Shown here in pieces: positions 12,341 to 51,904 of a DNA stretch of 64,000 bases. The stretch's first letter is position 1. The number at the start of each line of letters is the position of its first letter. The stretch comes from Zobellia barbeyronii (GTDB lineage: Bacteria; Bacteroidota; Bacteroidia; Flavobacteriales; Flavobacteriaceae): the NCBI RefSeq assembly GCF_018603515.1, contig NZ_JACATN010000002.1, positions 434,001 through 498,000 on the forward strand, in the 5' to 3' direction. The translations under genes were made by a program, and so were the position numbers. The notes under the pieces were generated by a model, which was given only the letters and a program-made list of their open reading frames with translations, was not told the DNA's origin and searched no databases.

Positions 12341-12364
12341 TTTCTTATGCGTTGTTTCTCGTGA

Positions 12365-32797: not shown

Positions 32798-32803
32798 GTT
32801 TAT

Positions 32804-33922: not shown

Positions 33923-33964
33923 GTATTATGCTTTTACGTAGTTCTGGACTACTTTTATATTTTG

Positions 33965-35221
33965 TTATTGAGCTATGAGATTTGCCGGTTTGAACTCCGC
34001 CGTTGGGTCACTCAATTTTTTCTTATCAATTTTCTCTCCTCCTTTAATGAATTTTGTACCGTACACATAGGCTTTTGCATTATTTACCGCATCTACGGAT
34101 AAAAGTGTATCACCTTTAAAATACCATACAGAAAAACAGTTTGGCTTATCTGCTTCCTCACGTACAACTACTTCATCGTAACCTTCTGAAAGACCTACCA
34201 TTTGTAATTTTACATCATATTGATCGGACCAAAACCAAGGTATGGCGTTATAACAACATTCTTTACCCGCAATGGCGGCCGCTGCAATTTTAGCCTGGTC
34301 CACGGCATTTTGAACGGATTCTAGCCGGATATGTCGATTGTAATGAATGTTATGGTGAAACGTACAATCACCAATTGCATAAATAGATGGATCACTAGTC
34401 TGTGCCATTTCATTTACCTGTATGCCATTCTCTATGGTCAAACCAGCCTTTTCAGCCAATTCTTTATTTACGTGAATACCCACGCCAACAACAATCATAT
34501 TAGCCTCATAACGGGTTCCGTCTGAGCACACCACCGTGTTCTTATTCTGATTGTTTTCTATGGAAATTACGTTCTTTTCTGTCAGCACCGCAACATCATT
34601 ATCCGAGTGAAGTTTCTGAAAAAAAGCGGACATTTCCGGGGCCGTAACTCTGGCAAGTATGCGCGATTCCCGTTCTAAAACGGTAACAGATGCGCCTAGT
34701 TTTTTTAATGAGGCGGCAGTCTCAAGTCCTATATAGCCCCCGCCAATCACAACTACTTTCAGCGCTTCGTTCTCAACAACCGTCTTTCTAATATTGGCCA
34801 CATCTGCAGCGGATCTAAGCGGAAAAAGATTCTTTGCCGTGTCTAAACCGGGTATGGGCGGCATAATGGGGCGTGCCCCTGTAGCTATCACAAGTTTATC
34901 ATAGTCCAGTGTCGTGCCATCAGCTAAGACTACCTTTTTGTTTTCTCGATCTATAGCATCAACCCAAACTCCTAACTTAAGCTCAATATTCTCCTTTTTA
35001 TAGCTCTCCTCGGACTTAAGCAAGTTTTTCTCAATACCATCCTCACTGGTCAAATAGGCTTTTGACAATGGTGGTCTGTGGTATGGTAGAGTTGGGTCTA
35101 TATCAATTAAGGTAATAGAACCCTGCCAGCCTTCGCGCCTTAGAACGAAAGCAAAGTTCACTCCAGCATGACTAGCACCTATAACCACACAATTTTGATC
35201 GGTATTTTTACTTTCTGACAT
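33965..35221 (-). CDS. FAD-dependent ferredoxin reductase (putidaredoxin reductase-like)
   Basis: 418 residues. Two dinucleotide-binding folds are seen: the FAD motif VVIGASHAGVNFAF near the N-terminus and the NAD motif VVVIGGGYIGLETA in the middle, plus the second FAD motif IYAIGDCTFH. Length and layout match the reductase of class I P450 systems. It passes electrons from NAD(P)H to the ferredoxin encoded 5 bases upstream. The three components form a complete electron chain in one operon. Confidence 0.92.
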   Translation of the reverse strand: MSESKNTDQNCVVIGASHAGVNFAFVLRREGWQGSITLIDIDPTLPYHRPPLSKAYLTSEDGIEKNLLKSEESYKKENIELKLGVWVDAIDRENKKVVLADGTTLDYDKLVIATGARPIMPPIPGLDTAKNLFPLRSAADVANIRKTVVENEALKVVVIGGGYIGLETAASLKKLGASVTVLERESRILARVTAPEMSAFFQKLHSDNDVAVLTEKNVISIENNQNKNTVVCSDGTRYEANMIVVGVGIHVNKELAEKAGLTIENGIQVNEMAQTSDPSIYAIGDCTFHHNIHYNRHIRLESVQNAVDQAKIAAAAIAGKECCYNAIPWFWSDQYDVKLQMVGLSEGYDEVVVREEADKPNCFSVWYFKGDTLLSVDAVNNAKAYVYGTKFIKGGEKIDKKKLSDPTAEFKPANLIAQ

Positions 35222-35226
35222 TTCTT

Positions 35227-35535
35227 TTATTTGGCTACTTTCAACACTACACCATCAATAGCATCAGTGATATCTATTTGACAACAAAGTCTACTGTATT
35301 CATCTGCATTATCATCAAGCTCAAGCATATCGGTCTCAATTTCGCTAGCACTTCCCGTTTTCTCCATATCCTCTGGAGCTACATGTACATGACAGGTAGC
35401 ACAAGAACAAACTCCTCCACAATCGCCATCTATTCCGGGTATTCCATTATCAACGGCAAGAGCCATTACAGAACCGGATGTTCCTTCTAAGGTTATTGTT
35501 TCTTCGTCACTGGTTATAAATGTGATTTTTGCCAT
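35227..35535 (-). CDS. Adrenodoxin-type 2Fe-2S ferredoxin
   Basis: 102 residues. Cluster ligands follow C-x5-C-x2-C in GDCGGVCSCATCHVHV, with the fourth in SRLCCQI. This is the vertebrate/putidaredoxin type that serves P450 enzymes. It is encoded between the P450 and the reductase with 5-base gaps on both sides, so all three are surely co-expressed. Confidence 0.93.
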   Translation of the reverse strand: MAKITFITSDEETITLEGTSGSVMALAVDNGIPGIDGDCGGVCSCATCHVHVAPEDMEKTGSASEIETDMLELDDNADEYSRLCCQIDITDAIDGVVLKVAK

Positions 35536-36889: not shown

Positions 36890-37729
36890 ATGGAACCTGT
36901 ATTAGAGCCCATACATTTAGATGAAAAACGCACGATTACAAGTTTTTTTCATTCTAAAAAAGACTTTGAAACTCCGTGGCATTTTCATCCGCAACATGAA
37001 CTTACCTATATTGAAGAAAGTGTGGGTACTAAATTTGTTGGCGACTATGTTGGTCCTTACCAACCGGGAGAATTGGTTTTATTACGTTCTAACCTTCCCC
37101 ATTGTTGGAAAAACAATACACAACAAAGAGGACTATCCAAATCCATTGTCATACAATGGAATTTAGGTGTATTCCCAAAAGTTCCGGAATTAGCCTCTTT
37201 ATTTCAAATGCTAAGAACTTCTTCTAAAGGATTATTGTTTAATAAAAAGGAAACGGCTTCTCTTATACCCCGATTAAAGAAATGCCCAGAATTAGAAGCT
37301 CATGACCTATATATAGAACTGCTCACCATTTTGGTAAAGTTGTCTAGTTGTAGCTACAAAACATTATCAAGCGCCAGCTTTGTAGAAGATTTACCTTCTG
37401 AATATGGTAGTCGTATGGCGCAGATTCATGATTTTGTAGGCTTAAACTATAACCGTAAAATTTATTTAAAAGAACTAGCAGATCTCGTGAACATGTCCGA
37501 GCAGTCTTTTTCTAGGTTTTTTACTAAAATGATGGGGCGTCCTTTCTTTACTTTTTTAAACGAGTACCGTATTAATATTTCCGCCAGAATGCTTCTGGAC
37601 ACTCATGATTCTGTCTCCCATATTGCTTTTGCTTGTGGTTACGAAACACTCCCTTTCTTCCATAGACAATTTAAAAAATTCATGGGCTCCTCTCCCCTTG
37701 CTTACCAAAGAAAATATGCAAAGGCCTAA
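36890..37729 (+). CDS. AraC-family regulator with cupin sensor domain
   Basis: 279 residues. N-terminal cupin barrel (PWHFHPQHELTYIEESVGTKFVGDY is its core, read in two halves) followed by a C-terminal double helix-turn-helix (LKELADLVNMSEQSFSRFF and SHIAFACGYETLPFFHRQFK). Such regulators bind a sugar directly in the cupin. It lies between the divergent P450 operon and the co-directional GH29/L-galactose genes, so it could control either or both. Confidence 0.88.
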   Translation: MEPVLEPIHLDEKRTITSFFHSKKDFETPWHFHPQHELTYIEESVGTKFVGDYVGPYQPGELVLLRSNLPHCWKNNTQQRGLSKSIVIQWNLGVFPKVPELASLFQMLRTSSKGLLFNKKETASLIPRLKKCPELEAHDLYIELLTILVKLSSCSYKTLSSASFVEDLPSEYGSRMAQIHDFVGLNYNRKIYLKELADLVNMSEQSFSRFFTKMMGRPFFTFLNEYRINISARMLLDTHDSVSHIAFACGYETLPFFHRQFKKFMGSSPLAYQRKYAKA

Positions 37730-37899: not shown

Positions 37900-39441
37900 A
37901 TGAATAAAATATTCACACTTTTATTGACCGGTGTAGTTCTTACTTCATGTGGATCAAAAACGGATAAAAAGAAAGAAGAGCCAGCTGCACAAAAAACTGC
38001 GGCTACATACGAAGCTAATTGGGAATCTATAAAAGAACATTATAAAGACCCTGAATGGTTTAATGATAGCAAATTTGGTATTTTCATTCACTGGGGTGCC
38101 TATGCAGTACCAGCGTATGGTTCTGAATGGTATCCAAGACAAATGTATATGGATACAGCTACTTTTAGTGCTCAGTTAAAACTGGGTCAAAAAGGACCTA
38201 ACGCCACATATCTTCATCATAAGGAAACATACGGAGGTCAAAAGACTTTTGGATATAAAGACTTTATACCAATGTTCAAAGCAGAAAAATTCGATGCTAA
38301 AGAATGGATTGATATTTTTAAGAAATCAGGAGCTAAATATGTAATTCCTGTAGCGGACCACCATGATGGTTTTGCTATGTATAAATCCAACACAACTAGA
38401 TGGAATTCAGTAGACATGGGTCCAAAGCGTGATGTTTTGGGTGAGCTTTTTAAAGAAGGTCGTGAGCAAGGCATGATAATGGGAGCTTCTTCCCACTACG
38501 CCTTCAACTGGTCTTTCTATAATAAAAAAGATAAATTTGATACGACAGACCCTGAGTTTGCCGATTTGTATTCCGCTAAAGGAAAAGACCTTACGGAGCC
38601 TGTATCCGAAGAGTTCAAAAAATTATGGTGGGACAGAACAACAGATCTTATAGATAACTATCAGCCAGATATTCTTTGGTTTGACTTCTATCTTGATATT
38701 CCAGACTATAAAGAATACCGTCCTAAAATTGCAGCATATTACTATAACAAAGGTCTTGAGTGGGGCAAAGAAGTAGTGATTAATGATAAGAATTTTGACC
38801 ACGAGGCCTTTCCTGAAGGTTCTGTAATCTACGATTTGGAGCGAGGTAAGCTACCAGGTATTAGAAAACTGCCATGGCAAACGGACACCTCTATTGGAAA
38901 GAACTCTTGGTGTTACGTAACCAACTGGGAATCGCGCACAGCAAATAGCCTTGTAGACGATTTGGTTGATATTGTTTCTAAAAATGGAAACCTATTACTT
39001 AATGTAGGTCCAAAAGCAGATGGTACCATCCCAGAAGATCAAAAAGAAATATTATTCCAAATTGGAGACTGGTTAAATGTAAATGGCGAAGCTATTTATG
39101 ATACGGAATACTGGAGCACTTTTGGCGAAGGTCCTACCGAGGTTAAAAAAGGTCACCATAGTGAGGGACAGAATAAAGGTTTCACCGGTCAAGATATTCG
39201 TTTCACCAAAAAAGGAGATAAGCTTTATGCTATTATGATGGAGTGGCCAGAAGGCAACAAAGTAGATATCAAATCATTGGGTAAAGCTAGTAAATACGGT
39301 AAAGACCTAAATATCAAAAATGTAAGATTACTAGGAAGTGATGCTAAAATCTCCTTTGATGTGAAAGACGATGCGCTTTCAATTTCTAATCTAGGAAGCA
39401 AAACTGGAAATTTTGCTCACGTGCTTGAAATATCATTATAG
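37900..39441 (+). CDS. GH29 alpha-L-fucosidase family lipoprotein, candidate exo-alpha-L-galactosidase
   Basis: 513 residues with lipoprotein signal (MNKIFTLLLTGVVLTSC, Cys17). GH29 hallmarks: KFGIFIHWGAYAVPAYGSEW (59-78), the HHDGF motif at 154-158, and nucleophile D262 in ILWFDFYL. A C-terminal beta-sandwich follows (LYAIMMEWPEGN onward). L-galactose is 6-hydroxy-L-fucose, and some GH29 enzymes remove L-galactose. Directly upstream of an L-galactose-type catabolic operon and near an S1_11-like sulfatase, L-galactose release from porphyran is the best guess. True fucosidase activity cannot be excluded. A terminator separates it from the next gene. Confidence 0.87.
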   Translation: MNKIFTLLLTGVVLTSCGSKTDKKKEEPAAQKTAATYEANWESIKEHYKDPEWFNDSKFGIFIHWGAYAVPAYGSEWYPRQMYMDTATFSAQLKLGQKGPNATYLHHKETYGGQKTFGYKDFIPMFKAEKFDAKEWIDIFKKSGAKYVIPVADHHDGFAMYKSNTTRWNSVDMGPKRDVLGELFKEGREQGMIMGASSHYAFNWSFYNKKDKFDTTDPEFADLYSAKGKDLTEPVSEEFKKLWWDRTTDLIDNYQPDILWFDFYLDIPDYKEYRPKIAAYYYNKGLEWGKEVVINDKNFDHEAFPEGSVIYDLERGKLPGIRKLPWQTDTSIGKNSWCYVTNWESRTANSLVDDLVDIVSKNGNLLLNVGPKADGTIPEDQKEILFQIGDWLNVNGEAIYDTEYWSTFGEGPTEVKKGHHSEGQNKGFTGQDIRFTKKGDKLYAIMMEWPEGNKVDIKSLGKASKYGKDLNIKNVRLLGSDAKISFDVKDDALSISNLGSKTGNFAHVLEISL

Positions 39442-39484
39442 CACCTTAATAAAGAAGTTAGTTGAGTTAGTTTTTTTAATTTAG

Positions 39485-39512
39485 GAGCGCACCTTAAAAG
39501 TGCGCTCTTTTT
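39485..39512 (+). terminator. Rho-independent terminator after GH29
   Basis: Perfect 8-base stem GAGCGCAC / GTGCGCTC with loop CTTAAAA, followed by TTTTT. It separates GH29 from the L-galactonate operon, which therefore needs its own promoter in 39513-39614. Confidence 0.85.
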
Positions 39513-39614
39513 CAGTACTACACAAAATGAATAGGTGATAATTTGTTAAGCGGGATAGTACTTAAAAGAAATAACTCGTTTTAATATAAATGTGATCAAA
39601 AAAATAAATTACAC

Positions 39615-40631
39615 ATGAAATATATTGTATGCGAGAAGCCGGGAGAGTTCATTCTTAAAGAGAAAGAAGAACCTACAAGAAAATCCGGAGAAGCTATATT
39701 AAAAGTAAAAAAGGTAGGTATTTGCGGAACGGACTTACACGCGTATGCAGGTAACCAAGCATTTTTTACCTACCCCAGAATTCTTGGTCACGAACTGGCT
39801 ACCCAAGTAGTTGAAATAGACGAGAATCCTCAAGGTATTAAAGCAGGAGACAATGTTGTAGTTATGCCTTATGTAAGCTGCGGCACTTGTATTGCTTGTA
39901 GAAACGGGAAAACAAATTGTTGTACGAATATCAAAGTTTTAGGTGTTCATACAGATGGTGGAATGCAGGAAAAAATAACTGTTCCTACCAATTTACTTAT
40001 CCCTGCGCAACAGTTAACAGATGACCAAATGGCTGTTGTTGAGCCATTGGCTATTGGTGCGCATGCTATTCGTCGTGCCAATGTTCAACCTGGGGAAACC
40101 ATTGTTGTTGTTGGTTGTGGACCCATTGGTATTGGCATCATGAAGTTGGCGCAAATTGCCGGAGCAAAAGTAATTGCAATAGATATGAACCAGCAGCGTT
40201 TGGATTATGCTAAAAATGACATAGGTGTTGACTATGTTGTTCTAGGAGGAAAAGATGCCGTAGACCAAGTGTCTGAAATTACTAATGGTGATTTAGCTAC
40301 TGCGGTTTTTGATGCAACAGGTCATAAAGGAGCTCTTGAAGCAGGTCCTGATTATATGTCACATGGCGGAAGATACGTTTTGGTTGGCCTTTCTAAAGGC
40401 GAATTGGTATTTACCCATCCAAAAATCCATGCTAAGGAAACAACTATTATGTGCAGTAGAAATGCGACCTTAGAGGATTTTGAACATGTAATTTCTGTTT
40501 TAGAGAAAGGCGGTTTTCCAATTGATTCTTTCATCACCCACAATGTTCCTTATACTGAAATGATAGCCAATTTTGATGGTTGGTTAGACCCGGCAAACGG
40601 AGTTATTAAGGCTACTGTTGATTTTGAGTAA
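39615..40631 (+). CDS. Zinc dehydrogenase, probable L-galactonate 5-dehydrogenase (LgoD-like)
   Basis: 338 residues. Catalytic zinc ligands in GICGTDLHAY and LGHELAT; the structural zinc cluster CGTCIACRNGKTNCC is complete; nucleotide loop VVGCGPIGIG. It resembles E. coli YjjN/LgoD, which oxidises L-galactonate to D-tagaturonate. The next two genes encode altronate dehydratase and tagaturonate reductase, exactly the downstream steps, so the assignment is well supported by context. L-fuconate or another acid is the alternative. Confidence 0.83.
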   Translation: MKYIVCEKPGEFILKEKEEPTRKSGEAILKVKKVGICGTDLHAYAGNQAFFTYPRILGHELATQVVEIDENPQGIKAGDNVVVMPYVSCGTCIACRNGKTNCCTNIKVLGVHTDGGMQEKITVPTNLLIPAQQLTDDQMAVVEPLAIGAHAIRRANVQPGETIVVVGCGPIGIGIMKLAQIAGAKVIAIDMNQQRLDYAKNDIGVDYVVLGGKDAVDQVSEITNGDLATAVFDATGHKGALEAGPDYMSHGGRYVLVGLSKGELVFTHPKIHAKETTIMCSRNATLEDFEHVISVLEKGGFPIDSFITHNVPYTEMIANFDGWLDPANGVIKATVDFE

Positions 40632-40682
40632 ACCAACGTTCATCAACCATACAATTAAGCACAGACAAAAGTAAAGAACACT

Positions 40683-42335
40683 ATGTCAAAGCAATTTTTG
40701 CAAATACATCCAGAAGATAATGTTCTGGCAGCCCTTAAAGATATTTCTAAAGGTTCTGAAATCGTACATAACAATGACCGTTTTCAGTTAACGGTTAACG
40801 TAAAGGCCAAACATAAGTTTACAACTACCAACCTAAATGTTGGCGATAGTATTATTATGTACGGCTCATTGGTGGGCAAGGCTACAAAACCTATTGCCAA
40901 AGGTGAAACCATTACTACTGAAAATGTTGTACATGCTTCTTCGGAATATGCTGTAGGTCAAGAAAAACTGAGTTGGACGGCTCCGGATGTCAGCAAGTGG
41001 AAAGATGTTACTTTCAACGGATACCATAGAGCAGACGGAAGTGTGGGCACAGCCAATCATTGGTTGGTGATTCCCTTGGTTTTCTGCGAGAATAGAAATG
41101 TAGATGTAATGAAATCTGCATTATTAAAATCTCTAGGTTACCACACCACTACCGACTTTGTAGTTGATACCGAGGTTCTTGTAAACCAATATAAAAACGG
41201 AGCTTCCGATGATGAACTTTTATCTTCGGACATTATTAAAACTCCTGAAGATATAAAGCAAAACCGGACCTTCCCAAACGTTGATGGTATCAAATTTTTG
41301 AACCATGACGGAGGTTGTGGAGGTATTCGTCAAGACTCAGAAACCCTCTGTAACCTGTTAGCTGGATACATTACACATCCCAATACTGCAGGTGCAACAA
41401 TTTTGAGTTTAGGTTGCCAAAATGCGCAATTCAAATTATTAGAAGCTGCTATAGCTAAGCTTGACCCTAATTTTAAAAAGCCGCTACATATTCTAGAACA
41501 ACAAAAAAGTTCTAGTGAACGTCAGTTTATAGAAGAGGCGGTTAAAAAGACATTTGTAGGGTTGATAGAAGCCAATAAAACAGAAAGAAAACCTGCTCCA
41601 CTAACCAAACTTGTTTTAGGTTTGGAATGTGGTGGGTCTGATGGTTTTTCAGGAATATCTGCGAATCCATCTTTAGGTTATGCTTCGGATTTGTTAGTGG
41701 GTCTTGGAGCTACTACCGTCCTTTCAGAATTCCCTGAACTGAACGGTGTTGAGCAAGAACTCATTAACCGTTGTGAAACGGAAGAAAATGCAACCAAGTT
41801 TGCTAAACTAATGCGCGCTTATTCGGACAAGGCAGTTTCTGTTGGCTCTGGATTTGAGAATAACCCTTCACCTGGAAATATAAAAGACGGACTTATTACC
41901 GATGCCATGAAATCTGCCGGTGCGGCCAAAAAAGGCGGTACAAGTCCCGTTACCGATGTACTAGATTACACGGAGCCAGTTAGAAAGAAAGGCCTAAATC
42001 TTTTATGTACACCTGGTAATGATGTAGAAAGCACAACAGGTCTTGCCGGATCAGGATGTAACGTAATCTGTTTTACAACAGGATTAGGTACACCAACCGG
42101 GAACCCTATTGCTCCGGTCATTAAACTATCCAGCAACAATATACTCAGTAGCCGCATGAAAGACATTATCGACTTTAATACGGGAACGGTAATTACGGGC
42201 GAGGATACTATTGAGACCAAAGGCGAGGAACTACTTGAATATATTATTAAGGTAGCCAGCGGAGAGATTATTCCTGCTGCAGTGCGCTTAGGCCAAGAAG
42301 ACTTTATTCCTTGGAAACGAGGCATATCGCTTTAA
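40683..42335 (+). CDS. uxaA: Altronate dehydratase
   Basis: 550 residues, the full-length UxaA form: an N-terminal SAF domain (to about residue 90, MSKQFLQIHPEDNVLAALKD) fused to the catalytic C-terminal part (HDGGCGGIRQDSETL, LGLECGGSDGFSGISANPSLG, GLAGSGCNVICFTTG). Conserved Cys residues in these motifs bind the metal. It dehydrates D-altronate to 2-keto-3-deoxy-D-gluconate. Second gene of the operon, 51 bases after the dehydrogenase. Confidence 0.92.
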   Translation: MSKQFLQIHPEDNVLAALKDISKGSEIVHNNDRFQLTVNVKAKHKFTTTNLNVGDSIIMYGSLVGKATKPIAKGETITTENVVHASSEYAVGQEKLSWTAPDVSKWKDVTFNGYHRADGSVGTANHWLVIPLVFCENRNVDVMKSALLKSLGYHTTTDFVVDTEVLVNQYKNGASDDELLSSDIIKTPEDIKQNRTFPNVDGIKFLNHDGGCGGIRQDSETLCNLLAGYITHPNTAGATILSLGCQNAQFKLLEAAIAKLDPNFKKPLHILEQQKSSSERQFIEEAVKKTFVGLIEANKTERKPAPLTKLVLGLECGGSDGFSGISANPSLGYASDLLVGLGATTVLSEFPELNGVEQELINRCETEENATKFAKLMRAYSDKAVSVGSGFENNPSPGNIKDGLITDAMKSAGAAKKGGTSPVTDVLDYTEPVRKKGLNLLCTPGNDVESTTGLAGSGCNVICFTTGLGTPTGNPIAPVIKLSSNNILSSRMKDIIDFNTGTVITGEDTIETKGEELLEYIIKVASGEIIPAAVRLGQEDFIPWKRGISL

Positions 42336-42374
42336 GTATCTCAACTAAATTGTAACTTGACAAACAGCTATTTA

Positions 42375-43823
42375 ATGCAAATTTTAAATCATACTACCGT
42401 ACCAAACAGAGTGCAACGCCCATTGAAGGTTATGCAGTTTGGCGGTGGAAACTTTTTACGTGCCTTTGTAGATTGGATGGTACACGTACTCAACCAAGAA
42501 ACTAATTTTAACAGTGACATTGCCATTATAAAACCAACAGCAGGAGGTGATTATGCCGAACTAAAAGGGCAAGACGGACTTTTTACCGTTGTTCTTGACG
42601 GAATTAAAAATGGAAAACTCGTTGCCGAAAAAACATTAGTTACCGAAGTACAACAAGTAATCCACTCCTATAATGAATGGGCCGCTTATCTAAAATTGGC
42701 CGAAAACGAAGATTTACGTTTTATCATTTCCAACACTACCGAAGCAGGAATTAAATTTAATGCCGACGATAAGTTTGATGTAAGCCCACCAAAAGAATTT
42801 CCAGCGAAATTAACGGTTTGGCTTTACCACCGTTTCAAGCATTTTAAAGCAGACCCTTCAAAAGGATGCATATTACTTCCGTGTGAATTAATTGAAGACA
42901 ACGGAGCTGCTTTGAAAAAAGCAGTTTTACAATATGCTGATCATTGGGAATTAGAAGATGGTTTTAAGAATTGGGTCAATACATCTAATCATTTTTGCAG
43001 CACATTGGTAGACCGTATTGTTTCTGGTTACCCTTCTGATCGTGCAAAAGAAATTGAGCAAGAACTGGGTTATAAAGATGACCTTTTAGTTGCTGGTGAG
43101 TACTATCACAGCTGGGTAATCCAAGCTAATGAAACCGTACAAAAAGAACTTCCGTTTGCTCAAACAGACCTTAACGTAGAATTCGTAGATGACCTTGCCC
43201 CGTACCGTGAGATGAAAGTTCGCATTTTAAACGGTGCTCATACTTCTATGGTTCCTGTTGGATATTTGGCAGGCATTCGTTTTGTAAAAGAGGCGATGGA
43301 AAATGAAGAAGTAAGTAATTTTGTGGAGAGTCTTCTTTTAGAAGAAGCCGCAAAAACACTGGATTTTCCTGATGATGTAAAAAACAAATTTGTTGCAGAC
43401 GTTCTTGACCGTTTTCGCAATCCACTTTTGAAACATCAACTTATCAGCATCTCTTTAAATAGCACTTCTAAATTTGTTGCTCGTTTATTACCTACCCTAA
43501 AGGATTACTACAACGCACAAGGTAAGCTCCCAAAACGTATTGTTTTTGGACTTTCGGCTATGCTCCGTTTTTATAAGGGTGAGTTTAATGGTGAAAACAT
43601 TGCTCTTAATGATGACAAGTCCGTACTGGATTTCTTTGCATCAGAATGGCATAAAGTAGACGATGGCACTTCTAGTTTAGCTGCATTTGTAAATATAGTC
43701 CTTAAAAACACCACTATTTGGGGTGAAGATTTAACCCAAATTGACGGCTTAACAAATAGTGTAGCCAAGAACATTGAAAATATTGAAGCAGATGGAGTTG
43801 CTGTCTGCTTAAAGAATTTATAA
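42375..43823 (+). CDS. uxaB: Tagaturonate reductase (altronate oxidoreductase)
   Basis: About 482 residues of the mannitol dehydrogenase family. I start at the ATG of MQILNHTT; a TTG six codons upstream also opens the frame. Rossmann motif MQFGGGNFLRAFVDWM, family signature ILNGAHTSMVPVGYLAG (catalytic-domain helix with the conserved Asn and His). It reduces D-tagaturonate to D-altronate with NADH. Together with UxaA it converts tagaturonate to KDG. No uronate isomerase gene (uxaC) is present, so the tagaturonate is more likely to come from L-galactonate than from galacturonate. Confidence 0.9.
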   Translation: MQILNHTTVPNRVQRPLKVMQFGGGNFLRAFVDWMVHVLNQETNFNSDIAIIKPTAGGDYAELKGQDGLFTVVLDGIKNGKLVAEKTLVTEVQQVIHSYNEWAAYLKLAENEDLRFIISNTTEAGIKFNADDKFDVSPPKEFPAKLTVWLYHRFKHFKADPSKGCILLPCELIEDNGAALKKAVLQYADHWELEDGFKNWVNTSNHFCSTLVDRIVSGYPSDRAKEIEQELGYKDDLLVAGEYYHSWVIQANETVQKELPFAQTDLNVEFVDDLAPYREMKVRILNGAHTSMVPVGYLAGIRFVKEAMENEEVSNFVESLLLEEAAKTLDFPDDVKNKFVADVLDRFRNPLLKHQLISISLNSTSKFVARLLPTLKDYYNAQGKLPKRIVFGLSAMLRFYKGEFNGENIALNDDKSVLDFFASEWHKVDDGTSSLAAFVNIVLKNTTIWGEDLTQIDGLTNSVAKNIENIEADGVAVCLKNL

Positions 43824-43849
43824 TCAAATTCGGTTTTAAAAATTAAAAC

Positions 43850-44677
43850 ATGACAATAGATAGTCACCAGCATTTTTGGCGCTACGAACCGGTTAAACAT
43901 TCTTGGATCGATGATAGCATGTCTAACATACGGAAAGATTTTCTTCCGGAAGATTTACAAAAAGTGTATCAAGAAAATGAGATTGATGGTTGTGTTGCCG
44001 TGCAAGCGGACCAAACTCTTGAGGAAACCGACTTCTTATTAGACTTAGCCAAACAAAACGATTTCATAAAAGGAATTGTAGGTTGGGCAGACCTTAGGTC
44101 TGAAGATATTGATGCTGTACTGGAAAAATATAGCTCTGACAAAAATCTAAAAGGTTGGCGACATGTCGTGCAAGGTGAGCCTGATCCTAATTTCTTGCTA
44201 CGTCCAGATTTTTTAAAAGGAATTTCAAAGCTGGAAAAATATAATCACACCTATGACATTTTGGTTTTTCCTCATCAATTAGGGGCTGTTTTGGAGTTTG
44301 TGAAAAAATTTCCAAACCAGAAATTCGTTATAGACCATATAGCCAAACCTTACATTAAAGATAATTTTTATGACGGTTGGGCCACCTTAATGAAAGAAAT
44401 AGGAAAACATGAAAATGTGTCTTGTAAACTTTCAGGTATGATTACCGAGGCTGATTACAATTTATGGACGTCAGAACAACTCCAGCCCTACATGCATTTG
44501 ACCTTAGAGGCCTTTGGAAGTGAACGTTTAATGTTCGGTTCTGATTGGCCGGTATGTCTGGTTGCCGGGAATTACGGACAAGTAAAAAGTATTGTAACGC
44601 ATTTTATTTCAACGCTTAGTAGCCAAGATCAGGAAATGATTATGGGTAAGAATGCACAAGAATTCTATAATTTATAA
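43850..44677 (+). CDS. Amidohydrolase-family sugar lactonase, probable L-galactono/L-fucono-1,5-lactonase
   Basis: 275 residues, COG3618-type. N-terminal metal motif IDSHQHFW (HxH), VGWADLRSED, conserved His in FVIDHIAKP, and C-terminal Asp in MFGSDWPVC. The family hydrolyses 1,5-lactones of L-fucose and L-galactose. Next to the sugar dehydrogenase that would make the lactone and upstream of permease and mutarotase, it provides the L-galactonate used by the zinc dehydrogenase at 39615. Cytoplasmic. Confidence 0.87.
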   Translation: MTIDSHQHFWRYEPVKHSWIDDSMSNIRKDFLPEDLQKVYQENEIDGCVAVQADQTLEETDFLLDLAKQNDFIKGIVGWADLRSEDIDAVLEKYSSDKNLKGWRHVVQGEPDPNFLLRPDFLKGISKLEKYNHTYDILVFPHQLGAVLEFVKKFPNQKFVIDHIAKPYIKDNFYDGWATLMKEIGKHENVSCKLSGMITEADYNLWTSEQLQPYMHLTLEAFGSERLMFGSDWPVCLVAGNYGQVKSIVTHFISTLSSQDQEMIMGKNAQEFYNL

Positions 44678-44755
44678 ACCAAAATTGTATGGGCATACTT
44701 GAGCGCTTTTTTTGCTAGTATACACCCCTAACAATGCTTAAAATAAGAGAACCTA

Positions 44756-45550
44756 ATGGATTTAAATTTAAAAGGAAAAGTAGTCGTAATTAGCGGTGCT
44801 GCCGGTAAAGAAGGAAGCATAGGAGAAACAATTTTACAACGTTTAGCTGAAGAAGGAGCTATCCCAGCCGTAATTGATCGTAATGCTCGTGGTTTTGGTT
44901 ATGTTGAAGCAATTCAGAAGAAGGGTATTGATGCTATTTTTTGCCAGACCGATGTGACAAATCCTGATCAGATTGAAAACGCCGTAAAAACAATTGCAGA
45001 AAAATATGGCCGTATAGATGTGGTTATAAACAATGTGGGAGTAAACGACGGTGTTGGTCTAGATGCTAGCTACGAAGAGTTTATGGATTCTCTTAAACTT
45101 AATATGGTGAGCTATTTTCTTATTGTAAAACATGCACTACCCTTCCTTATAAAATCAAAAGGTAATATTTTGAACATTGGTTCTAAAGTGGCCTTAACGG
45201 GACAAGGTAGGACTTCTGGTTACGCTGCTTCTAAAGGTGGTGTTTTAGGTCTTACCCGTGAGTGGGCAGTAGATCTGATCAAACATGACATACGTTCTAA
45301 CGCAATTATAATTGCGGAAAGCTGGACGCCATCTTACGACACATGGATCAGAACTTTACCAGACGGTGAGGCAAAATTACAATCCATCGTAAAGAAAATT
45401 CCTTTGGAAAATAGAATGACGAGCACCAATGAAATAGCGGATACTTGTTTATTCACAATCTCGGATAGATCATCGCATACTACAGGTCAGTTTATTTTTG
45501 TAGACGGCGGATATGTGCATCTAGACCGTTCATTATTGACTGAAGATTAA
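44756..45550 (+). CDS. SDR sugar dehydrogenase, probable L-galactose/L-fucose 1-dehydrogenase
   Basis: 264 residues. Cofactor motif SGAAGKEGSIG, NNVG, active-site Ser in NIGSKVALTG and YAASKGG. The C-terminal stretch (AESWTPSYDTWI, HTTGQFIFVDGGYVHLDR) resembles bacterial L-fucose dehydrogenases. It would oxidise the sugar at C1 to the lactone. The operon has no fuculose or deoxy-keto acid cleavage enzymes, so L-galactose fits better than L-fucose. A GAGCGCTT half-site of lac type lies about 50 bases upstream. Confidence 0.83.
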   Translation: MDLNLKGKVVVISGAAGKEGSIGETILQRLAEEGAIPAVIDRNARGFGYVEAIQKKGIDAIFCQTDVTNPDQIENAVKTIAEKYGRIDVVINNVGVNDGVGLDASYEEFMDSLKLNMVSYFLIVKHALPFLIKSKGNILNIGSKVALTGQGRTSGYAASKGGVLGLTREWAVDLIKHDIRSNAIIIAESWTPSYDTWIRTLPDGEAKLQSIVKKIPLENRMTSTNEIADTCLFTISDRSSHTTGQFIFVDGGYVHLDRSLLTED

Positions 45551-45574
45551 ACCAACCCACTCTAAAATATACCA

Positions 45575-46918
45575 ATGACAAAAAACACCAAAACACCTGT
45601 AGTACCAACGCACTTGCTGGTACCCTTCATAGCTGCAACTTCTATTTTTGCACTTTGGGGTTTTGCCAATGATTTGACAAACCCAATGGTTTCGGCTTTT
45701 AAAAAGGTAATGATTCTTTCTAATGAAGAAGCTTACAACGTACAGTTCGCATTTTATTTTGGGTATGGTGTTATGGCGATTCCAGCCGCATTGTTCATTC
45801 GTAAATTCAGTTATAAATCAGGACTATTACTTGGTTTGGCACTCTATGCTTTAGGTGCCATCCTGTTTTATCCTGCAGCTGAAAATGGTTCATACACCTA
45901 TTTTCTTATCTCACTTTTTGTTATCACTTGTGGACTGGGCTTTCTAGAAACTACTTCCAACCCCTTAATTCTTTCTATGGGAGACAAGGAAACAGCTACA
46001 CAGAGACTAAATTTGGCGCAATCCTTCAACCCTATTGGTTCATTGACAGGTATGCTTATTGCCAAATTTGTAGTGTTGGATAGAATTCTATCCGCAGATT
46101 ATGCAGACAGTTCTGAAATTGTAGCCCTAGGTTCCGAAAAAGCTGCAGAAATAAAGGCTTTTGATTTGAATATTATCAGTGGCCCGTACATAGCCGTAGG
46201 TGTTTTTGTAGCCTTGGTATTTTTTGTTATTTGGAAAACTAAAATTCCTGCAATGACAATGGGAGACCATTTATCCATTAAAGAATCTTTAGACCGTATT
46301 TTTAAGAGTAAGACTTTTGTATTGGGTGTAATAGCGCAAATGTTCTATGTTGGCGCTCAGATTATGTGCTGGACGGCTATCTTTCAATTAGTTGAATATT
46401 TAAATGAATCTCAAAACTTAGGTGTTGATGCTACCTGGTGGAATATTACCGCCATGGTGTCTTTTGTTGTTACTCGTTTTATAGGTACGGCATTGATGAA
46501 AAAAATAAATCCCGCTAAAATGTTAGCCTATTTTGGCTTGGCAGCTGCACTTATGTGCGGTGGTATTATAATGACCTCGGGCATTCTAAGCTTAGTGTTT
46601 TTAGTACTAGTTTCCGTATTCATGTCTATCATGTTCCCTACCATCTACGGTCTTGCGCTAAAAGATATGGGCGAAGAAGCAAAACTGGCTTCATCCGGAC
46701 TTATTATGGCCATTGTAGGAGGTGCCTTTTTACCGAAGCTACAAGCTAGTATAATGGATTTTGGCGATACCGTAAACGGACAAGAGGTTTTTGGCGATAA
46801 AATAGCCGGAAACATTACAGAAATTCATTTTTCGTTCTTGTTGCCTATGATATGTCTTCTTTTTGTTGCATTTTACGGTATGTACGCTTATAAAGTAACC
46901 AAAACTAAAATTGCTTAA
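45575..46918 (+). CDS. fucP: FucP-type MFS sugar:proton symporter
   Basis: 447 residues, about twelve hydrophobic helices. FucP signatures: FALWGFANDLTNPMVSAFKK (N-terminal helix), FVITCGLGFLETTSNPLIL, LAQSFNPIGSLTGML, FMSIMFPTIYGLALKDMG. E. coli FucP also takes L-galactose. Here it probably imports L-galactose across the inner membrane. Sixth gene of the operon (24 bases after the SDR) and followed within 5 bases by the mutarotase. Confidence 0.9.
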   Translation: MTKNTKTPVVPTHLLVPFIAATSIFALWGFANDLTNPMVSAFKKVMILSNEEAYNVQFAFYFGYGVMAIPAALFIRKFSYKSGLLLGLALYALGAILFYPAAENGSYTYFLISLFVITCGLGFLETTSNPLILSMGDKETATQRLNLAQSFNPIGSLTGMLIAKFVVLDRILSADYADSSEIVALGSEKAAEIKAFDLNIISGPYIAVGVFVALVFFVIWKTKIPAMTMGDHLSIKESLDRIFKSKTFVLGVIAQMFYVGAQIMCWTAIFQLVEYLNESQNLGVDATWWNITAMVSFVVTRFIGTALMKKINPAKMLAYFGLAAALMCGGIIMTSGILSLVFLVLVSVFMSIMFPTIYGLALKDMGEEAKLASSGLIMAIVGGAFLPKLQASIMDFGDTVNGQEVFGDKIAGNITEIHFSFLLPMICLLFVAFYGMYAYKVTKTKIA

Positions 46919-46922
46919 TATC

Positions 46923-47264
46923 ATGCAAACAAAAAGATACTGTTACTCTTGTGATCTTAAAGATGATCCAAAACTTATTGCCGAGTACAAAGAATACCAT
47001 GCTGAGGGTAACGCCAGACCAGCTATAACCAAAAGCATTAAAGATGCCGGTATTGTAGATATGCAGATTTTCTTGACCGGAAACCGTATGTTTATGATTA
47101 TGGAAGTTGATGAGACCTTTGATGCCAAAAGAAAAGCTGAAATGGATGCCAGCGACCCTGCTGTACAAGAATGGGAACAACTAATGTGGAAATACCAACA
47201 AGGTCTCCCTTGGGCTAAAAATGGAGAAAAATGGATTGAACTAGAGCGTATTTTTAAGCTCTAA
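46923..47264 (+). CDS. RhaM-like L-sugar mutarotase (DUF718)
   Basis: 113 residues from the ATG of MQTKRYCYSCDL, which gives the usual length and avoids overlap with fucP. It matches the L-rhamnose mutarotase family (ferredoxin-like fold; YKEYHAEG with the conserved His, AGIVDMQIFLTGNRMFMIME, WEQLMWKYQQ). It interconverts anomers of an L-sugar so the dehydrogenase gets the right one. Last gene of the operon before a terminator. Confidence 0.85.
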   Translation: MQTKRYCYSCDLKDDPKLIAEYKEYHAEGNARPAITKSIKDAGIVDMQIFLTGNRMFMIMEVDETFDAKRKAEMDASDPAVQEWEQLMWKYQQGLPWAKNGEKWIELERIFKL

Positions 47265-47355: not shown

Positions 47356-49035
47356 CTAATCGTTCCAGTGGGCATCAATAACCTTTTGAATGTGTGGATA
47401 TTTTTCATCCGTCTCATTCAAGTCTTCACGAAGCCTCAACAATTCTTTCTTCAAATCTGCTATGGTTTCTGCATAAGCAGGATCTGCATAAGCATTGTTC
47501 ATTTCCTTTGGATCGTTCTTTAAATCATAGAACTCCCAAGCTGCAGGTGTATCCTGATCAAAGTCATTGCCCCAGTTTTCTTTATCCCATTCAGCATTTG
47601 GGTCACTAGTATCTACATAGTACTTTCCATAGAAAAAGATAAGCTTATGGTCCTTGGTACGAACTCCAAAGTGGGCAGGGTTTTGGTGACGGTGTGCCAT
47701 ATGCATCCAATACCTGTAATAAGTGGACTTCTGCCAATCTGCTGGCTCCTCACCTGTTTCTAAGATTGTTTTAAAGCTTTTTCCTTGCATATAATCAGGT
47801 GTGCTTCCGCCAGCCAATTCAATAAGCGTAGGTGCAAAATCTGTATTGTTGATTATAGCATCGGTGCGAGTTCCTGCTTTGATTTTTTCTGGGTAACGTA
47901 CAAAAAACGGCATCCGCATAGATTCCTCGTACATCCATCTTTTATCAATAAAATCATGCTCACCTAACATAAATCCTTGGTCTCCGGTGTAAACAATTAT
48001 AGTATTATCCAGAAGACCTTCCTTCTCTAAATAATCCATTAAACGTTTTACGTTATCATCAACCCCTTTTACACAACGTAAATATTTTTTTACGTAATCT
48101 TGATAAACTTTACTGGCATGTTTCTTTTCTGCATCATCCATCTCCCATTTTACAAATTCCTCAGGGCGAATATCATCTGCATTTCGGTAAACACGGTGAA
48201 CAGAACTATCTACATAGATATTCATAGCTTGGTTACGAATCATATTTCTATGTGAAACAGATGAACCTATTATTCTAGTCAAAGAATCATTCTTACCACG
48301 TGTGGCAATTGAACCGTTGTTTCCCCTTTCGTAAAGACTTTCTGGTTCAGGAATAAATGTATCTGCTAAATACTCTTCATAACGAGGAGCATTTTCAAAA
48401 TCATCATGAGGTGCTTTAAACTGATGCACTAAAAAGAAAGGCTTATTAGGGTCTCTTTCATTCTTTAACCAATCTAAAGAAATATCGGTAACCATATCAG
48501 AAGAATGCCCTTTAGTCTGAACCGTATTTTTAGGCCATGGCTTATCTCCACGAACCCTAAACTCTGGATCAAAATATTTTCCTTGCCCTGGTAGAACCTT
48601 ATAATAGTCAAAAGCTGCAGGCTCTTCTTTTAAGTGCCATTTACCAACAACAGCAGTTTGGTAGCCCAACTTTTTCATTTCAATTGGAAGAAACTGGCGC
48701 GCCGGTTCAATACGGCCATCTAAATCCAAAACTCCATTTAATTGGGAGTTCTGACCCGTAATAATCGCCGCACGACTAGGCGTACAGATAGAATTACTAA
48801 CAAAGCAATTGTCAAAGATGATACCTTCCTTGGCTATCTTATCTAATGTTGGAGTGGGGTTTAATTTTGCCAACCGGCTACCATAGATTCCAAAACCTTG
48901 GGTAGTATGGTCATCAGCCATAATATAAATGATGTTCGGTTTTTTTTCGGTGATTACCGCCTTCTCTTCTTTACAGGAAGAAAACACAATAAGCAACAAA
49001 AGAGCATACAGTACATTGTTCTTTTTGTAGCGCAT
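47356..49035 (-). CDS. S1_11-like sulfatase, lipoprotein, candidate L-galactose-6-sulfatase
   Basis: 559 residues. Lipoprotein signal with Cys21 (LIVFSSC). Formylglycine motif C84-T-P-S-R. The region MADDHTTQGFGIYGSRLAKL and NSICTPSRAAIITGQNSQ looks like the N-acetylglucosamine-6-sulfatase branch, S1_11, which removes 6-sulfates. In porphyran loci of gut Bacteroides, an S1_11 enzyme desulfates L-galactose-6-sulfate before an exo-alpha-L-galactosidase. The adjacent L-galactose operon and GH29 make the same role likely here. The subfamily call is by eye. Confidence 0.87.
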   Translation of the reverse strand: MRYKKNNVLYALLLLIVFSSCKEEKAVITEKKPNIIYIMADDHTTQGFGIYGSRLAKLNPTPTLDKIAKEGIIFDNCFVSNSICTPSRAAIITGQNSQLNGVLDLDGRIEPARQFLPIEMKKLGYQTAVVGKWHLKEEPAAFDYYKVLPGQGKYFDPEFRVRGDKPWPKNTVQTKGHSSDMVTDISLDWLKNERDPNKPFFLVHQFKAPHDDFENAPRYEEYLADTFIPEPESLYERGNNGSIATRGKNDSLTRIIGSSVSHRNMIRNQAMNIYVDSSVHRVYRNADDIRPEEFVKWEMDDAEKKHASKVYQDYVKKYLRCVKGVDDNVKRLMDYLEKEGLLDNTIIVYTGDQGFMLGEHDFIDKRWMYEESMRMPFFVRYPEKIKAGTRTDAIINNTDFAPTLIELAGGSTPDYMQGKSFKTILETGEEPADWQKSTYYRYWMHMAHRHQNPAHFGVRTKDHKLIFFYGKYYVDTSDPNAEWDKENWGNDFDQDTPAAWEFYDLKNDPKEMNNAYADPAYAETIADLKKELLRLREDLNETDEKYPHIQKVIDAHWND

Positions 49036-49197: not shown

Positions 49198-50301
49198 TTA
49201 CACCCTTTCCAATTTAATAGGTGCCGTTCTGTTAGCGTTCCATTGGCACACGTAAAGGTTCTTATCCTCATCTACAAAAACATCGTGGCCATGATTAAAA
49301 ACAGCTTTTTCAGACTGATACATTTGCTGAAGTTTACCATTTTTATATTCTGGAGCATCTCCTCCAGGGTTAGAAACTACTTTATTCTCGCCGTCCATAA
49401 TGGTTACAAAACCAGAATCGTTAAAACGATTACCCTGTTTGTTCTCTGACCAGCATACACCTGCATAGACATTATCATCATCAAGAACCGGTCTACAAAC
49501 ATAAGCTCCTGGTAATTCTACGGTCTTAATAAACTTACCATCTAGAGTGAAAAATTTAAAGCTTTTATCTGAACGTGAAGTAACTATTAAGACTGGATTT
49601 TGTTTATCTCTGTAATCTACTGCTACACCATGCGCGTTGTGTAGATTATAATTCTTATCACTATTATCGTGACCACCCCATTTGCGGATGAATTCTCCTT
49701 TATGATTAAACTGAAGAATAAAGTCAGAACCATAACCATCTGCAACATATACATCCCCATTAGGGCCTATTGCGGTTTCAGTTGGTAAATATTCTTGCTC
49801 TTTAGTATAGACACCAATGGTATGAGGGTCAGGTAAATTGAATAAAAGTCGCCCGTCTATTGTTGTCTTACTAACGGTTCCGGCTTGTTTGCTCCATTTA
49901 CCGGTGCGGTCTACAAACCACCCACAATCCACAATGTATAGCATGTCCTCACCACCTTCATCATGAAGTGTAAGTCCGTGCCCACCAGGATAACGCGTAC
50001 CCCAATAGTCAAGTAATTTTCCAGATTTATCGAAAACCAAAATATTATTATCCGTATGGTCTCCCAACATAATAAGCCTTCCCTTACTATCCATCTGCAT
50101 TTCGTGACAGTTTAATATAGGATTATGAGCTACAGACATTTTTGCCCAGTCTTTAACCACCTTATATTTAAAATCACCGTGACCTATAATTTGTTCTTCC
50201 ATTACATTTTTCTTTAAAATACTAAAACCGAAAGATGATGCAGTAGACAAAGCAGCGGCGCCTAAGACAGATTTTTTAAGAAAACTTCTTCTTTTGGTCA
50301 T
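49198..50301 (-). CDS. Tat-exported NHL/six-bladed beta-propeller protein
   Basis: 367 residues. Tat signal RRSFLKKSVLGAAALST at the N-terminus. The body has NHL-like strands (DSKGRLIMLGDHTDNNILVFDKSGKLLDYWG, read in two parts; GPNGDVYVADGYGSDFILQF; GHDVFVDEDKNLYVCQW) and reaches six blades. Resembles peptidyl-hydroxyglycine lyase-like or smp-30-like propellers, but I see no clear active site. It is encoded after DUF1501 and the DUF1553 protein, probably in the same transcript, and before the S1_11-like sulfatase. Function unknown. Confidence 0.8.
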   Translation of the reverse strand: MTKRRSFLKKSVLGAAALSTASSFGFSILKKNVMEEQIIGHGDFKYKVVKDWAKMSVAHNPILNCHEMQMDSKGRLIMLGDHTDNNILVFDKSGKLLDYWGTRYPGGHGLTLHDEGGEDMLYIVDCGWFVDRTGKWSKQAGTVSKTTIDGRLLFNLPDPHTIGVYTKEQEYLPTETAIGPNGDVYVADGYGSDFILQFNHKGEFIRKWGGHDNSDKNYNLHNAHGVAVDYRDKQNPVLIVTSRSDKSFKFFTLDGKFIKTVELPGAYVCRPVLDDDNVYAGVCWSENKQGNRFNDSGFVTIMDGENKVVSNPGGDAPEYKNGKLQQMYQSEKAVFNHGHDVFVDEDKNLYVCQWNANRTAPIKLERV

Positions 50302-50360
50302 ATGATACTGATTATTTTAATTGGTAAATTACAATGAAAGTTAATAAACAGTGGGTAAAT

Positions 50361-51878
50361 TTAGGTCAATAAATCTTTGACCACATGCCCGTGAACATCA
50401 GTAAGACGGTAGCGCCTACCTTGATGTTTGAAAGTCAACCTCTCATGATCTACTCCAAATAAATGCATAAGGGTAGCATGAAAATCATGAACATGAACAG
50501 GGTCTTGGGTTACATTGTAACTAAAATCGTCCGTCGCTCCATAGGTAAAACCAGGCTTCACTCCTGCTCCTGCCATCCACATTGTAAATGCTTTTGGGTG
50601 ATGATCACGTCCGTAATTCTCGCTGGTCAACTGACCTTGAGAGTAAACGGTACGCCCAAATTCTCCACCCCAAACTACGAGTGTATCTTCAAACATGCCT
50701 CTTTGCTTTAAATCCTTAATTAAAGCTGCAGTTGCTTGATCTGTTTTTTTAGATTGACTTTTTACACCTCCTGGGCAATAGTTGTGCTGATCCCACCCTT
50801 GGTGATAGAGTTGTACAAATTTTACTCCTTTTTCAAGTAGTTTTCTTGCCATTAAACAGTTGGCAGCATATGTACCCGGGTCTCTACTGTCTTCTCCGTA
50901 CATATCAAAAATATATTCCGGTTCGTTGGTCAAATCGGTTACTTCAGGAATAGAAGTTTGCATTTTAAATGCCATTTCATACTGAGACATTCTAGATTGA
51001 ATTTCAGGATCACCATAGGCATCAGTCTGTAATTCATTTAAATGTTTTAAGTAATCTAGCATATCCCTTCTATCATTACCATCGTAATTTTCTGGATCAC
51101 TTAAATACAGTACGGGATCTTTACCAGATCTAAATTGAACACCTTGGTGCTCCGTTGGTAAAAAGCCATTACCCCATAAACTGGCTTTTAACGGTTGTCC
51201 TTTACCGTTTTTAGAGACCAATGCTATAAAGGTTGGCAAGTTTTCATTGTCAGAACCTAAACCGTAGCTTAACCAAGAACCTATTGCAGGTCTACCAGGT
51301 AATTGATTTCCTGTCTGCATAAAGGTAATTGCAGGGGTGTGGTTAATCTGGTCCGTTTGCATACTTTTTATGAAACATAAATCATCTACAACCTCAGATA
51401 AATAAGGCATGGCATCACTTACCCAAGCACGTGATTCTCCATATTGATTGAATTTAAAAGTAGATGGTGCTATAGGCAAAGTACTTTGGCTACCACTCAT
51501 TCCCGTAAGTCTTTGACCACTTATAACGGAAGGAGGTAATTCTTGGCCGAACATATCACTAAGCTTCGGTTTGTAATCGAACAAATCCATCTGGGAAGGC
51601 CCTCCACTTTGAAAAAGGTAGATTATTCTTTTTGCCTTTGGTGCATGGTGAGGTAATCCTAATCGGTTTTTATTATAAGCCTTTAAAATTTCTTCTTCCG
51701 TACTCTCTTTACCAATACCGGCAAATGCTTTCTCGGCTCCTAGTAAACTGCCCAAAGCTATGGCACCAATACCAAGTGACGTTTGTTTTAAGAAATGTCT
51801 TCTATCTAACTGCTTCTCGATTTGTTGCAAATCTTTATTTGTAGAAGTCAGTTTGCTATGGTGATGATTATTACACAT
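50361..51878 (-). CDS. Tat-exported DUF1501 protein (alkaline phosphatase clan)
   Basis: 505 residues. Tat signal DRRHFLKQTSLGIGAIALGS. DUF1501 motifs: LFQSGGPSQMDLFDYKP, YHQGWDQHNYCPGG, GGEFGRTVYSQG, GRDHHPKAF and HDFHATLMHLFGVDHERLTF. The fold belongs with alkaline phosphatases and sulfatases, but no reaction is established. Found as a pair with PSCyt/DUF1553 proteins, mostly in Planctomycetes and in marine Bacteroidetes loci. It lies 26 bases after its partner gene. Confidence 0.88.
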   Translation of the reverse strand: MCNNHHHSKLTSTNKDLQQIEKQLDRRHFLKQTSLGIGAIALGSLLGAEKAFAGIGKESTEEEILKAYNKNRLGLPHHAPKAKRIIYLFQSGGPSQMDLFDYKPKLSDMFGQELPPSVISGQRLTGMSGSQSTLPIAPSTFKFNQYGESRAWVSDAMPYLSEVVDDLCFIKSMQTDQINHTPAITFMQTGNQLPGRPAIGSWLSYGLGSDNENLPTFIALVSKNGKGQPLKASLWGNGFLPTEHQGVQFRSGKDPVLYLSDPENYDGNDRRDMLDYLKHLNELQTDAYGDPEIQSRMSQYEMAFKMQTSIPEVTDLTNEPEYIFDMYGEDSRDPGTYAANCLMARKLLEKGVKFVQLYHQGWDQHNYCPGGVKSQSKKTDQATAALIKDLKQRGMFEDTLVVWGGEFGRTVYSQGQLTSENYGRDHHPKAFTMWMAGAGVKPGFTYGATDDFSYNVTQDPVHVHDFHATLMHLFGVDHERLTFKHQGRRYRLTDVHGHVVKDLLT

Positions 51879-51904
51879 ACGTTCTTTTCTTAGCTGTTAA
51901 CAAT

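Follow-up and report, generated by a model that had tools for sequence, protein, structure and literature searches.

We analysed a 64,000-nucleotide stretch of the Zobellia barbeyronii genome (contig NZ_JACATN010000002.1, positions 434,001 to 498,000), here called the window, and in it a compact set of genes that probably serves the use of L-galactose. The genome is labelled G000, the contig of this locus C22, and the other contigs discussed below C11, C31 and C32. On the forward strand, a gene for an AraC-type protein with a cupin domain (36890-37729; Pfam HTH_18 and Cupin_2), the likely regulator of the set, precedes a GH29 lipoprotein gene (37900-39441), whose product is probably an exo-alpha-L-galactosidase, judging from its best solved-structure matches. 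The catabolic genes follow on the same strand: a zinc dehydrogenase (39615-40631; Pfam ADH_N/ADH_zinc_N), a probable L-galactonate 5-dehydrogenase yielding D-tagaturonate; a UxaA-family dehydratase (40683-42335; Pfam GD_AH_C, GD_AH_second and SAF), a probable D-altronate dehydratase yielding 2-keto-3-deoxygluconate (KDG); a UxaB-family reductase (42357-43823), a probable D-tagaturonate reductase yielding D-altronate; a COG3618-type amidohydrolase (43850-44677), a probable L-galactono-1,5-lactonase; a short-chain dehydrogenase/reductase (SDR; 44756-45550), a probable L-galactose 1-dehydrogenase; a FucP-type sugar:H+ symporter (45575-46918), a probable L-galactose importer; and a RhaM-type mutarotase (46911-47264; Pfam rhaM). 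These genes are intact open reading frames, tightly packed on one strand, and their families agree in Pfam and NCBIfam. Beyond RhaM, on the reverse strand, lies the gene for an S1 sulfatase lipoprotein (47356-49035), a probable exo-L-galactose-6-sulfatase.

The order of these genes is the same in all four named Zobellia loci (L011-L014; the closest named species are Zobellia amurskyensis, russellii and uliginosa), and the AraC-type regulator lies upstream of GH29 in each of the four. The zinc dehydrogenase was found in all nine genomes searched within the genus, and together with the conserved order this argues that the set is not a chance assembly. In L012, additional sequence separates RhaM from the sulfatase. 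Homologues of the regulator, with 41-71% identity, also lie upstream of GH29 or of the dehydrogenase in L057, L060, L067 and L071. A preliminary description of this DNA had placed the set at 37900-47264, and its genes, families and order are borne out; that interval, however, stops short of the sulfatase.

The GH29 enzyme and the sulfatase point to the sugar that is released. The best solved structures for GH29 are 7snk (433 bits, named alpha-L-fucosidase), 7ljj (427 bits) and 7lnp (425 bits; Exo-alpha-L-galactosidase), which score 126-135 bits above the next structure, the fucosidase 4ni3 (299 bits); judged by eye, the N-terminus is lipobox-like. The best solved structure for the sulfatase is 7lha, an Exo-L-galactose-6-sulfatase (E value 8e-192), and a CTPSR motif is found at residue 84. 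By their nearest structures and by the active-site motif of the sulfatase, the two proteins thus show both traits of the pair that carries out exo-desulfation and GH29 cleavage of porphyran. We take the solved structures nearest to the two proteins to derive from the loci bacple_01701 and bacple_01702 of the gut polysaccharide utilization locus PUL-PorB. In PUL-PorB, an S1_11 sulfatase (bacple_01701) and a GH29 enzyme (bacple_01702) desulfate porphyran and release L-galactose (PMC12316285), the same roles that we propose for the Zobellia pair, whose nearest solved relatives are apparently of this kind; galactonate, a lactonase and altronate go unmentioned in the main text of that report. Based on the structure matches and on the agar- and porphyran-related surroundings described below, the substrate is most likely L-galactose-6-sulfate, a major building block of porphyran (PMC10033563).

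The catabolic enzymes resemble those of the L-galactonate and tagaturonate steps in Escherichia coli. The zinc dehydrogenase shares 41% identity with E. coli LgoD across 337 amino acids; for a second zinc dehydrogenase elsewhere in the window (12365-13381) the value is 30%. UxaB is 44% identical to its E. coli namesake and scores 665 bits on the NCBIfam tagaturonate reductase model (cut-off 359); UxaA is 31% identical to E. coli UxaA, and the only match to it in its own genome is itself (E value 0.001). The E. coli proteins are family counterparts, but in E. coli the route begins with L-galactonate and, unlike in Zobellia, is encoded by dispersed genes. The enzymes of the first steps carry other names. 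The SDR, which has the YxxxK motif and 4gkb as its best solved structure, scores 354.8 bits on the NCBIfam L-fucose dehydrogenase model (NF052481; cut-off 300), a model name that in itself gives no proof of the substrate, and the permease scores 461 bits on TIGR00885 fucP (cut-off 280). The lactonase, the only copy found in the Zobellia genome, scores 271 bits on the NCBIfam L-fucono-1,5-lactonase model, below its cut-off of 400, and its only solved match is 4dlf. The expectation that annotation pipelines would label the set as fucose use therefore holds for the SDR and the permease but not for the lactonase. As an example of how genes of this kind are labelled, UxaB and UxaA of Flammeovirga pacifica have been assigned to galacturonate use (PMC5385347). 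Within the set we found no fuconate dehydratase, no 2-keto-3-deoxyfuconate (KDF) dehydrogenase and no fumarylacetoacetate hydrolase (FAH)-family hydrolase.

We consider it highly probable that the set forms the L-galactose arm of a region for the utilization of red-algal galactan (porphyran/agar); we infer the enzyme activities, the choice of substrate and the regulation from resemblance and gene context. At the surface or in the periplasm, the S1 sulfatase would take off the 6-sulfate and GH29 would then free terminal alpha-L-galactose, as suggested by their close relatives. FucP would bring in the L-galactose, RhaM would equilibrate its anomers, the SDR would oxidize it to L-galactono-lactone and the COG3618-type lactonase would open this to L-galactonate. 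The zinc dehydrogenase would then oxidize C5 of L-galactonate to give D-tagaturonate, which UxaB would reduce to D-altronate and UxaA would dehydrate to KDG. Finally, a KDG kinase and a KDPG (phosphorylated KDG) aldolase, whose genes (KdgK and KdgA) are on contig C32, would convert KDG to pyruvate and glyceraldehyde-3-phosphate. A neighbouring 3,6-anhydro-L-galactose (AHG) branch probably feeds the same KDG pool.

Zobellia has a second cluster, on contig C31, that resembles an L-fucose pathway. It comprises an LldD-like enzyme, a FucP, an SDR, an FAH-family hydrolase, a further SDR and an enolase-superfamily dehydratase, and it adjoins sulfatases, SusCD genes and another GH29-family gene. Its SDR and FucP are 53% and 52% identical to those of the window, and they score higher on the L-fucose models (408 versus 355 bits for the SDR and 515 versus 461 for FucP, all four above cut-off). 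By this resemblance, although it is not proof, L-fucose is the best reading of the C31 cluster, and given its presence the window set is not the sole fucose candidate in the genome. The C31-type SDR (L124:12777-13568, reverse strand, on C31 of G000) carries YxxxN in place of the YxxxK of the window type. The former motif is present in 8 of 8 C31-type SDR rows (four genomes, each twice) and the latter in 41 of 41 window-type rows; a tree of 45 SDRs separates the two types (4 and 41 rows) at 100/100, with long-branch warnings. We do not take the residue positions that set the two types apart as evidence on specificity. The preliminary description had held that uxaC and enzymes for fucose cleavage are missing, which is correct for the locus but not for the genome, since uxaC is on contig C11, beside TRAP transporter genes, and the L-fucose-type cluster is on C31.

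The dehydrogenase is widespread in the family: of 397 Flavobacteriaceae genomes, 83, representing 57 of 237 genera, yield matches with an E value of 1e-95 or better, a span over which fucose labels on the SDR and FucP genes of marine members may mislead. A class-wide draw of 395 genomes gave such matches in 23, the genome of the window included. From 83 dehydrogenase matches outside the genus, we read the neighbourhoods of 60 loci in 58 genomes, each within ∼19.5 kb; six of the other 23 matches (G111, G134, G151, G161, G238 and G303) were read separately and 17 were left out. A porphyran marker was defined as GH29, the sulfatase, the P450 or its alcohol dehydrogenase (ADH), and the genomes used below to compare SDR types, UxaA, UxaB and the dehydratase were hand-picked, not random. 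The full set, consisting of the dehydrogenase, UxaA, UxaB, the lactonase and either an SDR or an aldo-keto reductase (AKR), is present in 26 of the 60 loci, with FucP as well in 24 of these 26 and a KDG kinase or KDPG aldolase gene in six. In four of the 60 loci (L061, L071, L092 and L107), KdgK and KdgA both separate the dehydrogenase gene from that of UxaA. Since phosphorylation at C6 is impossible for fucose and other 6-deoxy sugars, the presence of these two genes inside the gene run supports L-galactose. Similarly, an FAH hydrolase is found in none of the 26 full sets, compared to 5 of 14 cores that have the lactonase and an SDR or AKR but not both Uxa genes (Fisher value 0.003, which is only indicative because related loci were treated as independent), and porphyran markers accompany 11 of the 26 full sets but only 1 of the 14 other cores.

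Several additional patterns in these loci concern individual enzymes. An AKR (PF00248), for which NCBIfam yields nothing above cut-off, takes the place of the SDR between the lactonase and FucP in 5 of the 60 loci (L066, L070, L077, L089 and L095); such loci would represent a natural exchange of the enzyme for the first step. Six loci (L086, L087, L100, L102, L105 and L108) have a dehydrogenase-UxaB pair in other settings, without lactonase, SDR or FucP, and such pairs perhaps carry out C5 epimerization of another aldonate. The identities of UxaB in relatives fall into two ranges, about 47-50% and 53-70%, which by eye are unrelated to the porphyran markers.

A number of observations weigh against assigning the set to L-galactose, or to L-galactose exclusively. 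The top structural match of GH29 bears the fucosidase name, with the L-galactose names at ranks two and three, and the models for the SDR, the lactonase and FucP all bear L-fucose names. The C31 cluster is an imperfect fucose pathway: its FAH hydrolase is best on a 2,4-didehydro-3-deoxy-L-rhamnonate model (359 bits, below the cut-off of 500), its dehydratase passes no curated cut-off (best talarate/galactarate dehydratase, 146 versus 500), and it is without a lactonase, the sole copy found in Zobellia being that of the window. In the survey, 15 of the 26 full sets are without a porphyran marker in the stretch that was read, and an FAH hydrolase occurs in 7 of the 60 dehydrogenase loci, each time with a window-like dehydrogenase (69-78% identity): five (L084, L090, L103, L110 and L112) also have the lactonase and a window-type SDR, and in two (L081 and L093) the dehydrogenase is paired with UxaB and accompanied by a C31-type SDR. 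In L217 and L224-L227, L-fucose-type clusters that also hold FAH and KDF-dehydrogenase-like genes contain more distant dehydrogenases (45-52%). A pure L-galactose reading leaves the dehydrogenases in FAH loci unexplained. Finally, in 22 hand-picked genomes (E value 1e-60), 16 have only the window-type SDR, 4 have both types and 2 have only the C31 type, and the 16 point to a shared first step.

These points would be accommodated if the SDR, the lactonase, FucP and the mutarotase accept either L-galactose or L-fucose, and only the zinc dehydrogenase with UxaB and UxaA forms an L-galactose branch, an arrangement that we regard as a serious possibility, if somewhat short of an even chance. It agrees with the 16 genomes that have only the window-type SDR, with the single lactonase of Zobellia, and with the SDR tree, in which the five window-type rows beside FAH nest within the 41-row window-type clade. 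Moreover, a dual cluster that borrows UxaB and UxaA would explain the FAH-linked loci, and indeed all 16 hand-picked genomes with at least one locus that is without UxaA or UxaB hold both genes somewhere (UxaA at 55-79% identity, UxaB at 42-64%). Of 17 hand-picked genomes, 7 carry the C31-type dehydratase. However, Zobellia, G018, G389 and G394 keep both SDR types, so that another candidate for fucose exists there beside the window copy, and the separation of the two SDR types in the tree, subject to its long-branch warning, also argues against a common role. Sharing the first steps with L-fucose is compatible with the assignment of the set to the L-galactose arm; given the relatives of the dehydrogenase and the SDR in fucose-type clusters, the early steps may be shared, which speaks against exclusivity rather than against L-galactose.

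A plain L-fucose pathway, in which the UxaA-family enzyme would dehydrate L-fuconate, is improbable. The model names of the SDR, the lactonase and the permease would fit it, as would the fact that GH29 is mostly a family of alpha-L-fucosidases. A UxaA-family pair in the fucose cluster of Campylobacter jejuni (Cj0482/Cj0483) has been hypothesized to act on L-fuconate (PMC9100392). Nevertheless, we rejected this explanation because of the separate L-fucose-type cluster on C31; in addition, it gives UxaB no role, the set has neither a KDF dehydrogenase nor an FAH hydrolase, KdgK and KdgA occur in sister gene runs, and GH29 and the sulfatase match L-galactose enzymes.

A role of UxaA and UxaB in D-galacturonate use, together with a distant uxaC and with the other genes as mere chance neighbours, is equally improbable. 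The genome does contain uxaC, and the only UxaA-family gene found there is that of the window. However, uxaC is on a different contig, beside TRAP transporter genes, and the joint occurrence of the full set in 26 of 60 family loci led us to reject chance. With a single UxaA copy and a uxaC on C11, UxaA and UxaB may also serve galacturonate, a possible side role that counts to this extent against a dedicated L-galactose function. A dual L-glucose/L-galactose pathway like that of Luteolibacter sp. LG18 shares the downstream steps (PMC12632266) but is very improbable, as it needs a 5-keto-L-gluconate 4-epimerase, for which Pfam shows no gene in the cluster (the rest of the genome was not searched), and its L-galactose dehydrogenase, LguA, groups with plant GalDH and BVU_0219 and not with SDRs.

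The chemistry that we propose for the L-galactose arm is already known from Luteolibacter, in which the lguABCDEF genes take L-galactose through L-galactonate, D-tagaturonate, D-altronate and KDG to KDPG, and disruption of the tagaturonate-altronate-KDG genes impairs growth on L-galactose (PMC12632266). Regarding the steps after tagaturonate as new for L-galactose is thus not supported, while the assignment to L-galactose made in the preliminary description is supported by this route, as by the GH29 and sulfatase structures, the porphyran/agar setting, the C31 cluster and the KdgK/KdgA genes in four of 60 loci. The Lgu and Zobellia systems are alike in that a dehydrogenase and UxaB-type and UxaA-type genes are clustered with a regulator. 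The legend of the Lgu figure names no lactonase, GH29, sulfatase, FucP or RhaM, and LguA is described as using NADP and lacking activity on L-fucose (PMC12632266). Luteolibacter belongs to another phylum, the Verrucomicrobiota, and we likened Lgu to the Zobellia set by description, not by sequence.

The same applies to BVU_0219/0222 of Bacteroides (Phocaeicola) vulgatus, which reportedly convert L-galactose to D-tagaturonate with a first enzyme of a family other than SDR; we presume that both BVU_0219 and plant GalDH are AKRs. Zobellia shares with this type of pathway an LgoD-like gene and UxaB- and UxaA-type genes in the cluster, and its genome also encodes a KDG kinase and a KDPG aldolase, but its first enzyme is an SDR and not, as in the Lgu and B. 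vulgatus type, an AKR. What differs in Zobellia is therefore a route that starts with an SDR, is tied to porphyran-type exo-enzymes and is widespread in the family. The chances seem to us about even that, in marine Bacteroidota, an SDR of the L-fucose dehydrogenase family has replaced the AKR, that a fucose-type front end has become an L-galactose branch, borrowing UxaB and UxaA, through the addition of one zinc dehydrogenase, and that, with the AHG branch, both L-sugars of red-algal galactans would enter one KDG pool. If so, many ‘fucose’ clusters of marine Flavobacteriaceae would be L-galactose or dual clusters. In the open-licence literature (titles, abstracts and passages), we found no account of marine flavobacteria using freed L-galactose by this route; the window offers a full set of genes to test, in a genus for which gene deletion has been reported (PMC10033563).

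With respect to transcription, a hairpin at 39483-39512 (forward strand), between GH29 and the catabolic genes, has 10 pairs and a folding energy of -15.7 kcal/mol, which none of 200 shuffled sequences reached, and is followed by a T tail. Because of this probable intrinsic terminator, which is not among the sites listed by a consensus terminator scan, GH29 is probably transcribed separately from the dehydrogenase and later genes. Matches to TTG, 17-23 bases, TANNTTTG, which we take to be the Bacteroidota promoter pattern, were no more frequent in the window (9) than in 20 shuffles (mean 8.75), and sigma-70-like sites (27) were below the shuffle mean of 36.4. Two start codons may differ from the listed TTG: UxaB may start at an in-frame ATG at 42375 and RhaM at one at 46923.

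The rest of the window is consistent with the use of agar and porphyran. A cytochrome P450 (35541-36704, reverse strand) matches 6g5o (779 bits, residues 1-387), an entry titled just Cytochrome P450 that we take to be a 6-O-methyl-D-galactose demethylase. Next to it on the same strand (32003-35535), Pfam identifies the esterase, ADH, ferredoxin reductase and ferredoxin of the same set, as described in PMC10033563. Further genes on the reverse strand encode a GH117 3,6-anhydro-alpha-L-galactosidase (13398-14621; 3p2n, 911 bits, residues 1-407) and, for the AHG branch, a 3,6-anhydro-L-galactonate cycloisomerase and an aldehyde dehydrogenase (7574-10123; 5xd7, 622 bits, and Aldedh). The product of the AHG branch is probably converted to KDG by a KduD-like SDR and the second zinc dehydrogenase (11570-13381, reverse strand; KduD model 324 bits, just under the cut-off of 339), an assignment made by analogy with the systems in PMC10163077 and PMC5943477.

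The window is probably the counterpart of the ZGAL_4655-4690 agar/porphyran region of Zobellia galactanivorans (PMC5613140, PMC10033563, PMC5698469), for which the published texts deal with the AHG genes and the demethylase. Counting from zgal_4674 (the ADH), GH29 would correspond to 4679 and the beta-propeller-like gene to 4688, as printed; zgal_4679-4682, 4684 and 4687 are unnamed in the open-licence main texts searched. Past the sulfatase, at 49198-55153 on the reverse strand, are a gene without Pfam match, which is beta-propeller-like according to the published account of its counterpart, a DUF1501 gene and a PSD1-type cytochrome protein gene. By gene count these are ZGAL_4688-4690, published as agar-responsive with an unclear link (PMC5613140), and all three also adjoin GH117 and the zinc dehydrogenase in L211, as do two of the three in L059. 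A PhyH-family dioxygenase (31053-31937, reverse strand) has a copy with at least 60% identity in 14 of 60 relatives, 9 of which show neither the P450 nor its ADH within the sequence that was read, and our guess is that it demethylates another methylated sugar.

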